This document shows positions 40,480 through 52,158 of a stretch of 64,000 bases of DNA, piece after piece. The first letter of the stretch is position 1. Every line of letters starts with the position of its first letter. The DNA comes from Myxococcaceae bacterium JPH2 (GTDB taxonomy: Bacteria; Myxococcota; Myxococcia; Myxococcales; Myxococcaceae), in NCBI GenBank assembly GCA_016458225.1, contig JAEMGR010000009.1, forward strand, positions 372,001 to 436,000, in the 5' to 3' direction. A program made the position numbers and the translations under genes. A model generated the notes under the pieces. The model was not told the DNA's origin. It did not search any database and saw only the letters and a list, made by a program, of their open reading frames with translations.

Positions 40480-40485
40480 GCGCGC

Positions 40486-40585
40486 AACATCAAGAGCGGC
40501 CTCGCTTGCGCGGGTGCCCGACAACCTGGAGACGGACCTCCAAGGTGTCCAAATGATGCGGCCCGGGAGAAGTGATTCCGCGGGC
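40486..40585 (+). ncRNA. Candidate SAM-clan riboswitch (SAM-I/IV-like)
   Basis: The RNA begins CATCAAGAG, like the SAM-I/SAM-IV core. P2 is a hairpin GGC-CTCGC/GCGGG-GCC (40498-40518). The conserved ACAACC (40521-40526) and GGTG (40544-40547) flank P3, formed by CCT-GGAG and CTCC-AGG. CATC at 40488 can close on GATG at 40555. A further hairpin, GCCCG/CGGGC (40561-40585), carries GGAGAAGTGAT in its loop. S-adenosylmethionine sensing fits the operon downstream, which makes homoserine and cystathionine for methionine. The assignment is by eye; the exact class (SAM-I, SAM-IV or the I/IV variant) is not settled. Confidence 0.68.
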
Positions 40586-40884
40586 AATCCAAGTGTCCGA
40601 AGCCAGGGCCCTCGCCCCATGCTTCGGTGAGAGAGTCTCGCCGTGGTTCACTCGCCTCGACAGACGACGGTCCCCTCCCCCGCTCTGGGTCGTTGCTCGC
40701 GCTGTCGCGCGGGGTCGGCGCGAATGCGTCAGCCCTGGCTCATGCGCTAGGGCTTCGCATCTATCCCTCTCACGTCTGTCGTTGGCTCAGAGCCCGCTCG
40801 CGCGTTCGCGCGCGGTGACGGCGAGCCATTCCCTCTCAATTCCTATCAGCGCTCGCGGGGCGGGCGTCTGTCTTGGGTTCAGTC
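40586..40884 (+). other. Long leader between riboswitch candidate and first methionine gene
   Basis: About 300 nt with no convincing gene. A 63-codon frame at 40627-40818 is Arg/Ser-rich and lacks a ribosome site. No clear intrinsic terminator was found, so if the riboswitch works by transcription control its expression platform is not obvious; Rho-dependent or translational control is possible. Confidence 0.35.
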
Positions 40885-45600: not shown

Positions 45601-45629
45601 TTGACAGCCGCGAACTCCACAGGCAACGT
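45601..45629 (+). promoter_or_regulatory. Candidate promoter of the sulfate-uptake leader
   Basis: A perfect TTGACA (45601-45606) is followed after 17 nt by CAACGT (45624-45629), a weak -10. Initiation would fall near 45636, only a few nt before the leader ATG at 45640, which would make that reading frame nearly leaderless. Confidence 0.5.
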
Positions 45630-45639
45630 GATGACGCTC

Positions 45640-45717
45640 ATGCGAATCCCCACCACCACCCTCGCCTCGTGTTGCTGTCAGGCACCTTGGGTGGGCGTGT
45701 GTCCGCCGGTGGCCTGA
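45640..45717 (+). CDS. Cysteine-rich leader peptide of the sulfate-uptake operon
   Basis: A 25-residue frame: MRIPTTTLASCCC, then QAPWVGVCPPVA. Three adjacent Cys codons (TGT TGC TGT at 45670-45678) and a fourth at 45700 are far above chance in such a short frame. In-frame ATG 45631 and GTG 45628 are alternative starts. CCCACC (45649-45654), just before the Cys codons, can pair with GGTGGG within GGTGGGC (45690-45696), just after them. GGTGGGC also pairs perfectly with the 5' arm of the terminator downstream. This is the layout of a ribosome-stalling attenuator that senses charged Cys-tRNA. The peptide itself probably has no function. Confidence 0.82.
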   Translation: MRIPTTTLASCCCQAPWVGVCPPVA

Positions 45718-45740: not shown

Positions 45741-45773
45741 AAAGCCCACCCCCGGAAGGGAGGTGGGCTTTTG
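45741..45773 (+). terminator. Attenuator terminator before the sulfate-uptake genes
   Basis: AAAGCCCACC (45741-45750) pairs perfectly with GGTGGGCTTT (45762-45771), with an inner CCC/GGG and a GGAA loop, followed by TTTT. Its 5' arm contains GCCCACC (45744-45750), the perfect complement of GGTGGGC at 45690-45696 in the leader, so antiterminator and terminator exclude each other. It lies 65 nt before the porin start. Confidence 0.88.
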
Positions 45774-49864: not shown

Positions 49865-50925
49865 GTGTCATCGTCGAACACCTGACCAAGCACTTCACGC
49901 GGAGCCACCTCCCCGCCGTCGCGGACGTGTCGTTTCGCGCGCCCACGGGAGCCATCACCTCGCTCCTGGGCCCGTCCGGCGCGGGAAAGTCCACCCTGCT
50001 CCGCCTGATCGCGGGCTTGGAGATCGCGGACGCGGGAGCCATCCACATCGACGGCGTGGACTGTACGGGGCTCCCCGCGCAGCAGCGCGGCGTGGGCGTC
50101 GTGTTCCAGAGCTACGCGCTGTTCCGTCACATGACGGTGCGCCAGAACATCGCGTTCGGCTTGGAGCTGCGGCGCCTCCCCCGGGCACAGGTGACCGCTC
50201 GCGTGGAGGAGATGCTCGCGCTCGTGCAGTTGGATGACCTGGGAGAGCGCCTCCCGGGCCAGCTCTCCGGCGGACAACGCCAGCGCGTCGCGTTCGCCCG
50301 AGCACTCGCCATCCAACCGCGCTTGCTCCTGCTCGACGAACCCTTCGGCGCGCTCGACACCCGCGTCCGCGTGGAGCTGCGCGAGTGGCTGCATGCCCTG
50401 CATGTCCGCACCGGCATCACCACGCTCCTCGTCACGCATGACCAAGAAGAAGCCCTGGAGATCTCCCAGCACGTGGTCGTGATGTCGGGAGGACAGGTCG
50501 CGCAGGCCGGTCCACCCGAGGACATCTATGACCGGCCGACCACCCCGTTCGTCGCCTCCTTCGTCGGAGGCACCAGCATCCTGCGAGGTCGGGTGCGCGA
50601 GGGCCGCGCCGAGATGGGCTCGCTCGTGGTGAGCGCCCCCGAGGCAGCCCGCGAGGGCGAGCCCGTGCACGCCTTCGTGCGCCCCCATGACATCAAGCTC
50701 GCGAGGACGCCGAATGGAATCAGACATCCCGAAGGAGCCAGCCGCGTGCAACGCCTGAAGCCCGTGGGGGGCTACGTGAAGGTGCTCCTGCGACTGCCCA
50801 CCGGCGACGAGCTGGCCGTCGAGGTCCCTCGCTCGGAGTTCGAGGCGCTGGGCGTGGTCGAAGGAGACTCGGTGCTCGCGGATGTCCGAACCGCGCGTGT
50901 CTTTGTTGGCGACTACGCCATCTGA
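49861..50925 (+). CDS. cysA: Sulfate ABC transporter ATPase CysA
   Basis: A 354-residue ATPase with Walker A GPSGAGKST near 37-45, Q-loop VVFQSYALFRHMTV, signature [15 protein letters not shown] near 136-150, Walker B LLLLDEPFGALD and the switch His in VTHDQEEALE. A C-terminal TOBE domain with HAFVRPHDIKL follows, typical of CysA. It completes the importer and is the last gene of this unit; no terminator is apparent before the cysH leader promoter. Confidence 0.94.
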   Translation: MSVIVEHLTKHFTRSHLPAVADVSFRAPTGAITSLLGPSGAGKSTLLRLIAGLEIADAGAIHIDGVDCTGLPAQQRGVGVVFQSYALFRHMTVRQNIAFGLELRRLPRAQVTARVEEMLALVQLDDLGERLPGQLSGGQRQRVAFARALAIQPRLLLLDEPFGALDTRVRVELREWLHALHVRTGITTLLVTHDQEEALEISQHVVVMSGGQVAQAGPPEDIYDRPTTPFVASFVGGTSILRGRVREGRAEMGSLVVSAPEAAREGEPVHAFVRPHDIKLARTPNGIRHPEGASRVQRLKPVGGYVKVLLRLPTGDELAVEVPRSEFEALGVVEGDSVLADVRTARVFVGDYAI

Positions 50926-50952: not shown

Positions 50953-50982
50953 TTGACGAAGCGCAAGTGATGAACGTACTTT
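50953..50982 (+). promoter_or_regulatory. Candidate promoter of the cysH leader
   Basis: TTGACG (50953-50958) and TACTTT (50977-50982) are 18 nt apart, 28 nt after the cysA stop. Initiation would fall near 50989-50991, at the ATG of the first Cys-rich frame, which would then be leaderless. Confidence 0.5.
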
Positions 50983-50990
50983 GCTTGCCG

Positions 50991-51077
50991 ATGCCTTCCT
51001 CCACTCCGACCGCCGCGCCGTGCTGCCGCCGCTGCTGTCGGATGTGTCGCTGTGCCCTTCCGGGCGCGTGGCACTGA
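50991..51077 (+). CDS. Cysteine-rich leader peptide 1 of the cysH operon
   Basis: A 28-residue frame starting MPSSTPTAAPCCRR and continuing CCRMCRCALPGAWH; six Cys codons lie between 51021 and 51053. An in-frame ATG at 50970 would add seven residues including one more Cys. Its core CCRMC recurs in the next leader frame and is encoded by an identical 13-nt stretch TGTCGGATGTGTC (51036-51048). A hairpin at 51063-51107 overlaps its stop, but no T-run follows, so any control here may be through Rho or coupling to the second leader. Function as a Cys sensor is inferred. Confidence 0.72.
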   Translation: MPSSTPTAAPCCRRCCRMCRCALPGAWH

Positions 51078-51214
51078 GCAAGCATCCTCTGCGCCACACC
51101 TCGCGCCTGACTCCCTGGCCCGCCTCGCACCGAGGTGAGGTCCGTCTTCAGTCCTCGCCTCCGCTGTCCTCGCCATTCATGTCCTCCACGCCGTCACACG
51201 CCTCTCGCACCGCC

Positions 51215-51319
51215 ATGACAGACCTCTCGGTCGTCGTGGGCCGTGGGGCGGGCGCGTGTTGGGCCTGTTGTCGGATGTGTCCGCCTCCTGGCGGGCGCCG
51301 AGCAGCGGGGAGTGCGTAA
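51215..51319 (+). CDS. Cysteine-rich leader peptide 2 of the cysH operon (attenuator leader)
   Basis: A 34-residue frame, MTDLSVVVGRGAGA, then CWACCRMCPPP and an Arg/Gly-rich end. Cys codons are at 51257, 51266, 51269 and 51278. CCGCC (51281-51285), touching the last Cys codon, pairs with GGCGG (51290-51294). The overlapping GGCGGGC (51290-51296) is the perfect complement of GCCCGCC (51353-51359) in the terminator's 5' arm. A ribosome stalled on the Cys codons would cover the first segment and free the second to block the terminator. In-frame starts exist further upstream; none has a clear ribosome site. Confidence 0.78.
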   Translation: MTDLSVVVGRGAGACWACCRMCPPPGGRRAAGSA

Positions 51320-51350
51320 CCACCTCTTCCCGACCCCTGTCCTGCTTGCG

Positions 51351-51390
51351 CGGCCCGCCCTCGGAAACCTCCGAGGCGCGGGCCGTTTCG
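51351..51390 (+). terminator. Attenuator terminator before cysH
   Basis: CCTCGGA (51359-51365) pairs with TCCGAGG (51370-51376) over an AACC loop. Below one bulged C, CGGCCCGC (51351-51358) continues with GCGGGCCG (51378-51385). TTTCGTTCT follows. It ends about 20 nt before the cysH start, leaving room for the AAGGAG ribosome site. Confidence 0.85.
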
Positions 51391-51411
51391 TTCTGTCCAA
51401 AGGAGTCCCCG

Positions 51412-52158
51412 ATGTCCGCGGTTCGTCCTGTCCCCGTCGAAACCACAGTCTCCGAAGAGGAGCTGCTCGCCACGGGCACCTCGCTCGCGAGCGCTCCCGC
51501 CGAGGAGGTCCTCTCGTGGGCCGAGCACCGCTTCGGCGCGCGGGCGGTCATCGCCACCAGCTTCGGCCCCGAGGACATGGTCCTGGTGGACATGTCGCGC
51601 CGGCATGCACGGAGCCTGAAGCTGCTCACGCTCGACACCGGCCGCCTCCCACCGGAGACCTATGAGCTGATGGAGGTGGTGCGCAATCGCTACGGCGTCA
51701 CGGTGGAGACGTTCTTCCCCGACCACGCGCGCTTGGAGGCCCTCCAGTCCGAGCATGGCCACTTCTCCTTTCGCAAGAGCGTCGAGGCGCGGAAGGAATG
51801 CTGTGCGATTCGCAAGGTCGAGCCATTGCGGCGCGCGCTCGCGGGGCGGCTCGCCTGGGTGACGGGACTGAGGCGCGATCAGTCCTCCAACCGCGCCGAT
51901 GTCTCCGTGCTGTCTGTCGACAGAGAGCACGGCGGGCTCCTCAAGCTGAGCCCCTTGGCCAGTTGGACCGCGCGCGACGTGTGGACCTACCTGCGCGAGC
52001 ACGGCGTCCCCTACAACCCGCTCCACGATCGCGGCTACCTGTCCATCGGCTGCGCGCCCTGCACGCGCGCGGTGAAGCCCTTCGAGGATGAGCGCGCGGG
52101 CCGGTGGTGGTGGGAGTCCGCCGAGCACAACGAGTGCGGCATCCATGCGCGGCGCTGA
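51412..52158 (+). CDS. cysH: Assimilatory adenylyl-sulfate (APS) reductase, [4Fe-4S] type
   Basis: A 248-residue CysH-family reductase that releases sulfite from activated sulfate. The P-loop-like substrate site is TSFGPEDMVLVD near 43-54 and the catalytic Cys is in ECGIH near 243. The two Cys pairs that mark iron-sulfur APS reductases are present: CC at 130-131 followed by RKVEPL, and CAPC at 214-217. Classical PAPS reductases lack them, so APS is the likely substrate. AAGGAG lies 6 nt before the ATG. It is the first gene of the reduction operon and sits just after the attenuator. Confidence 0.92.
   Translation: MSAVRPVPVETTVSEEELLATGTSLASAPAEEVLSWAEHRFGARAVIATSFGPEDMVLVDMSRRHARSLKLLTLDTGRLPPETYELMEVVRNRYGVTVETFFPDHARLEALQSEHGHFSFRKSVEARKECCAIRKVEPLRRALAGRLAWVTGLRRDQSSNRADVSVLSVDREHGGLLKLSPLASWTARDVWTYLREHGVPYNPLHDRGYLSIGCAPCTRAVKPFEDERAGRWWWESAEHNECGIHARR

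Follow-up and report, generated by a model that had tools for sequence, protein, structure and literature searches.

In the trp- and his-type attenuators of enteric bacteria, a leader peptide enriched in the amino acid that the pathway makes is combined with alternative hairpins and an intrinsic terminator placed before biosynthetic genes. The leader region upstream of cysH that we describe here resembles this type in its end-product-rich leader, its alternative hairpins and its intrinsic terminator. It differs in its proposed signal, cysteine, in the two full modules that stand in series in relatives, in a first leader that is near-leaderless, and in an antiterminator extended through a middle hairpin that contains the stop codon.

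The uORFC-8-2 motif upstream of cysS in Rhodobacterales has been predicted to attenuate transcription by a ribosome-mediated mechanism, using Cys codons and an intrinsic terminator (PMC8632094). It shares these traits with the cysH leader, itself a predicted attenuator, but its target is a cysteinyl-tRNA synthetase, it has two Cys codons and a single module, and it belongs to alphaproteobacteria (PMC8632094). For Actinobacteria, Cys-rich leaders before cys operons have been predicted, without terminators (PMC1262725). Citing papers describe the leaderless polycysteine short ORFs of mycobacteria (Canestrari 2020) as attenuators of translation (PMC13236596; see also PMC9094748). As cited there, they are like the cysH leader in being near-leaderless Cys-rich frames before cysteine-supply operons, but they are presented as translational and as lacking conserved terminators, whereas each of the myxobacterial modules has, or had, a terminator. 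The tandem attenuators of Salmonella mgtCBR place two leader frames on one transcript, sensing ATP and proline (PMC3641672). The cysH leader likewise would have two leader frames per transcript, each a putative attenuation signal; the mgtCBR frames respond to two different signals, whereas both cysH modules are proposed to respond to the same one.

In the open-access full texts that we searched, no account emerged of myxobacteria attenuating transcription in response to cysteine. Neither Cys attenuators nor tandem attenuators are new in themselves; what looks new is a single transcript with two modules for the same signal, the first of them near-leaderless.

Here, we analyze a 64-kb stretch of DNA (the window) from a Citreicoccus-like soil myxobacterium and propose, with a probability of roughly 85% on the sequence evidence, that its cysA-cysH gap contains tandem ribosome-mediated transcription attenuators through which the supply of charged tRNA-Cys governs the cysH operon.

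Two cysteine-rich frames precede cysH

The cysA stop codon ends at position 50925 and the cysH ATG lies at 51412, leaving an intervening gap of 486 nt.

51412 to 52158, plus strand: cysH, an open reading frame and the first gene of the controlled operon, with more sulfate-reduction genes 3' of it.

The window cysH is 98% identical to that of Citreicoccus inhibens. As a sequence-only reading of this DNA had claimed, the gap holds two short frames with six and four Cys codons, and direct reading of the sequence confirmed both; the first has 28 codons and the second 46. Dinucleotide shuffles of the gap yielded a short frame with at least six Cys in 16 codons in 0 of 3000 cases, so the observed six-plus-four pair also arose in none. 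Across both strands of the 64-kb window, a single short frame reaches this threshold.

CysH was searched in 96 genomes of the family and is present in 51. Three genera concern us most: g1, the window's genus, which includes Citreicoccus inhibens; g19, Myxococcus/Pyxidicoccus; and g20, one further genus. Both Cys frames occur in the same order and place in all 30 cysH-bearing genomes of g1, g19 and g20, bearing out the expectation that the Cys clusters would be conserved in close relatives; the non-Cys residues drift and the number of Cys codons varies. Leader 2 of g20 (L073, G080) has twelve consecutive Cys codons, mostly TGC repeats, a run that could change length by slippage and so tune the sensor.

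R1, a covariance model of the second element, found it in all 30 of these genomes with E values no higher than 2e-22, which is a consistency check only, since the model was built from most of these 30 genomes' sequences. Element 1 of g20 and the cysK elements were left out of the model; R1 also matches g20 element 1 (E = 5e-21), which would fit an origin of the pair by duplication.

The DNA word TGYTGYCGNATGTGY (peptide CCRMC) is not a general marker of the leader family, because among 32 sites read in context leaders were found only before cysH in g1 and g3, the rest falling in other frames. Low-scoring model matches (L120-L122) proved to be ordinary terminators without Cys frames. Both Cys leaders are present in BNCN01000014.1 (L169), labelled Comamonas sp. 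KCTC 72670, a public record that appears to be mislabelled.

The first leader is predicted to be near-leaderless and its terminator varies among relatives

The first module comprises three features:

50953 to 50982, plus strand: promoter-like site, TTGACG (50953-50958), an 18-nt spacer and TACTTT (50977-50982), identified from the sequence.
50991 to 51077, plus strand: leader frame 1, ATG 50991 to TGA 51077, 28 aa with six Cys codons, MPSSTPTAAPCCRRCCRMCRCALPGAWH.
51117 to 51142, plus strand: hairpin after leader 1, at the terminator 1 position, folding at -16 to -18 kcal/mol, with a GTCTTC tail.

The ATG of leader 1 lies 8 nt past the -10 hexamer, making the predicted message near-leaderless, and TTGACG-N17/18-hexamer is found upstream of leader 1 in 28 of the 30 genomes. 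No promoter-like site before leader 2 was evident on reading the sequence; both modules presumably lie on one transcript.

Many relatives have a strong terminator 1 at the homologous place, for example of -25 kcal/mol with 5-7 U of 9. Several g19 subclades and g20 have such a terminator after frame 1, one instance of which reads CGGCCCGGTCTCCTGACCCAGGAACCGGGCCG then TTTTCGTTC (-25 kcal/mol, 6 U of 9); the post-frame-1 terminator of other subclades is weaker, at about -12 kcal/mol. Two complete modules, each a leader with its own terminator, are clear in several relatives and in g20, and terminator 1 is weak in the window. Sequence comparison indicates that terminator 1 of g1 retains its hairpin and has lost most of its U-tract. 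Because the hairpin at 51117-51142 is kept but its U-tract is poor, the window's first module is possibly weakened, and the window may thus have one fully competent module, the second, alongside one of reduced strength.

An alternative explanation is that the second module alone works in the window organism, leader 1 and its hairpin being a decaying relic of an ancestral tandem. We consider this a serious possibility, though short of even odds. It draws on the poor terminator 1 tail of both g1 genomes (3 and 1 U of 9, against 5-7 of 9 in several relatives) and on the antiterminator pairing of the window's leader 1, which is no better than in shuffled sequence. However, leader 1 has its six Cys codons and its promoter intact and conserved between the two g1 genomes, whereas in a relic the Cys codons would be expected to go first, as in genera g3, g6 and g7.

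The second leader is coupled to predicted alternative folds

The features of the second module, several of which overlap, are:

51179 to 51319, plus strand: leader frame 2, ATG 51179, 46 aa with four Cys, including ACWACCRMC, stop TAA 51317-51319.
51281 to 51294, plus strand: P1 hairpin, CCGCC (51281-51285) with GGCGG (51290-51294), from folding; the antiterminator's competitor.
51290 to 51359, plus strand: antiterminator, GGCGGG (51290-51295) with CCCGCC (51354-51359), continuing inward through CCG/CGG and P2.
51299 to 51348, plus strand: P2, the middle hairpin, 51299-51305 with 51342-51348 and 51306-51312 with 51326-51332, from folds.
51351 to 51394, plus strand: terminator 2, hairpin 51351-51385 and U-tract TTTCGTTCT (51386-51394), -31.8 kcal/mol, 6 U of 9.

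The start of frame 2 was assigned to ATG 51179 from the conserved start in relatives, and a Shine-Dalgarno motif is absent before it. The final Cys codon, TGT 51278-51280, directly abuts the CCGCC of P1, which begins at 51281. The 3' arm of P1 and the next G are complementary to the terminator 5' arm, with P2 between them. These segments had been recognized by the sequence-only reading, which placed GGCGGGC at 51290 opposite GCCCGCC at 51353, a CCGCC/GGCGG hairpin next to the last Cys codon, and an intrinsic terminator with its T-run about 20 nt before cysH; all are where it put them, and its list lacked the hairpin at 51117-51142, P2 and the near-leaderless start of frame 1. The U-tract of terminator 2 lies 18-26 nt upstream of cysH, and the terminator is conserved in 27 aligned sequences. 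A simple terminator scan did not pick up terminator 2, probably because of a bulge in its stem.

Among the same aligned sequences, the pairs of P1 are retained in 25-26 of 27 and those of the antiterminator in 25-27 of 27. If the P1 5' arm is masked before the 3' arm of the terminator exists, the minimum-energy fold is one long hairpin of antiterminator plus P2. P1 and the terminator are predicted to form instead when the whole RNA is present and unoccupied, or when a ribosome sits on the stop codon. The leader 2 stop codon is located in the P2 loop.

P2 shows compensatory variants between clades and elements (CGAGAAG/CTTCTCG, CGGGGAG/CTTCCCG and GGGAGAG/CTCTCCC), read from per-sequence stems rather than as a formal count, most single stems not being significant against shuffles. 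We give this covariation per sequence because a joint P2 alignment of different elements placed the arms out of register. P2 is not uniform, and its inner stem is absent or different in some clades. Formal covariation is limited, since most stem pairs of element 2 are invariant within the family. Duplex-energy swaps between elements were discarded as proof of arm co-evolution: they are too unspecific in GC-rich sequence, where the arms pair well with many partners.

Module 2 thus brings together the hallmarks of an attenuator, namely clustered Cys codons, an intrinsic terminator, predicted alternative pairing and cysteine-supply genes. From sequence, conservation, pairing potential and gene context we infer a mechanism of leader translation, ribosome stalling and cysteine-dependent termination. 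The transcript would begin just upstream of leader 1, whose near-leaderless ATG would be translated. When cysteine is plentiful, the ribosome would pass the Cys codons of leader 2 and reach the stop codon inside P2; with the ribosome there, P1 would form or the antiterminator arms would be held apart, allowing terminator 2 to form and transcription to end about 20 nt upstream of cysH. When charged tRNA-Cys is scarce, the ribosome would stall at the Cys codons and mask the P1 5' arm, and the freed GGCGGG would pair with the terminator's CCCGCC and extend into P2 as a long hairpin, so that transcription continues. The first module would follow the same logic in many relatives, with its own terminator, and perhaps less strongly in the window. 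A steeper response is a reasonable expectation for two sensors in series. The earlier proposal of attenuation by cysteine supply finds good support in the anatomy and in conservation across 30 genomes, but its view of a single leader and terminator gives way, because both frames of many relatives come with a terminator and an alternative pairing of their own.

Control might instead act on translation, as in the mycobacterial polycysteine type, with leader translation opening or closing the cysH ribosome-binding site. Near-leaderless polycysteine frames before cysteine genes in mycobacteria, as cited in PMC13236596 and PMC9094748, offer a precedent, but we judge this explanation improbable here. 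A strong conserved hairpin with a U-tract stands before cysH, whereas mycobacterial cys leaders are without terminators according to a 2005 survey (PMC1262725). Moreover, the last predicted leader helix, the terminator stem 51351-51385, ends upstream of the Shine-Dalgarno-like AAGGAG of cysH (about 51400-51405) and leaves it unsequestered in the predicted folds.

Similar leaders precede other cysteine-supply genes

Both genomes of g1 and 14 of g19 have a Cys leader of the same design ahead of the sulfate-uptake operon, and seven g19 genomes have one ahead of cysK. The uptake leader of the window comprises:

45601 to 45629, plus strand: promoter-like site for the uptake leader, TTGACA, 17 nt, CAACGT; kept at all 16 leader-bearing uptake loci.
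45640 to 45717, plus strand: Cys leader before the sulfate-uptake operon, MRIPTTTLASCCCQAPWVGVCPPVA, with conserved counterparts in the other g1 genome and in 14 genomes of g19.
45744 to 45772, plus strand: uptake-leader terminator, GCCCACC...GGTGGGC then TTTT; matched by R1 at E = 5e-5.

The 5' arm of the uptake terminator is complementary to GGTGGGC at 45690-45696, 3' of the Cys codons. Leader 1 and the uptake and cysK leaders have in common a promoter-like TTGACR-N17/18-hexamer, and mostly a start codon 7-14 nt past the sigma-70-like -10, so that the predicted message is near-leaderless. In the window itself, cysK lacks a Cys leader and directly follows another gene. The genes behind these leaders are always those of cysteine supply: the cysH operon, sulfate uptake and cysK.

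The sequence-only reading had taken the uptake and cysH controls to be independent. Against this, R1, built from the cysH element alone, matches the window's uptake leader (E = 5e-5) and, in other species, that of cysK (E about 1e-11 to 1e-13), although the match to the uptake leader may rest mostly, possibly only, on the terminator. By sequence similarity, common descent of some of the uptake, cysH and cysK elements appears at least as likely as independent origin. At another locus (L160, G055), a second cysteine synthase-like gene (a cysK paralogue of 52% identity) is preceded, at a distance of about 129 nt, by a short frame, MLCFVAPFGSCCRGMCCRVTTGPSVRAY, that is possibly another Cys leader.

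A different explanation is that the leader peptides are the active agents, perhaps Cys-rich microproteins that sense metal or redox state. Cys-rich short proteins exist and CCRRCCRMCRC could bind metal, but we find the idea very hard to sustain: Cys spacing and number vary widely (from 4 to about 15), the cysH, cysK and uptake leaders share no motif except Cys runs, the frames overlap RNA pairing arms, and searches of Pfam and NCBIfam gave zero matches for any leader peptide.

The window also contains a SAM-I/IV riboswitch (Rfam RF01725, 48.5 bits) at 40482-40601 on the plus strand, its sole Rfam match, upstream of methionine-type genes that precede the uptake operon; with the Cys leaders, two kinds of RNA control thus occur in one sulfur cluster. 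This strain evidently uses riboswitches for sulfur genes, but control of the cysH operon by a metabolite riboswitch or T-box, with incidental Cys codons, is the least credible explanation of all, given that an Rfam search of the cysA-cysH gap matched no family and that Cys runs, needless for a ligand-binding RNA, recur at several loci.

A palindromic operator-like site marks sister genera

The Cys frame is missing from most genomes of genera g3, g4, g6, g7 and g8, though two of g3 retain one. Many genomes of these genera have instead, upstream of cysH, a palindromic site close to TCCGYYATARYGGA. This site overlaps or precedes the cysH promoter at L037, L040, L044, L058, L059, L063, L067, L068, L071, L075, L076 and L080. 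The strict palindrome has a few occurrences per genome in those genera, against almost none for a reversed control pattern; it is missing from both g1 genomes and occurs at most a few times in g19. Operator and attenuator also occur together: at L118 (G063), about 266 nt upstream of cysK, the palindrome TCCGTTATAACGGA overlaps the -35 of the cysK Cys leader.

A fair reading of these sequences is that putative operator control was replaced by the attenuator, or the reverse, among genera. The fullest form of our proposal is that two complete attenuators of the same specificity stand in series on one transcript, the first leader near-leaderless, as part of a small regulon for cysteine (cysH, sulfate uptake, cysK) which, in the line leading to Myxococcus, replaced a DNA-binding regulator whose palindromic operator persists in sister genera; we regard this combination as an even bet.

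Farther afield, among 18 loci from other families of the order, a Cys leader precedes cysH only in two of genus g27 (soil MAGs), where it is single. In the Bacteroidota, the cysH of a Cytophagales MAG (L212) is preceded by a 43-codon frame with six Cys codons at its end, possibly an independent Cys leader.

Implications

The best-studied cysteine leaders, those of mycobacteria, are cited as acting at translation, whereas the myxobacterial case is proposed to act at transcription. Its tandem of same-signal modules would allow a direct test of why a cell stacks two sensors, be it to steepen the response, lower the basal level or widen the range. Because operator and attenuator are roughly complementary among close genera, the family offers a natural case of one control layer possibly replacing another.
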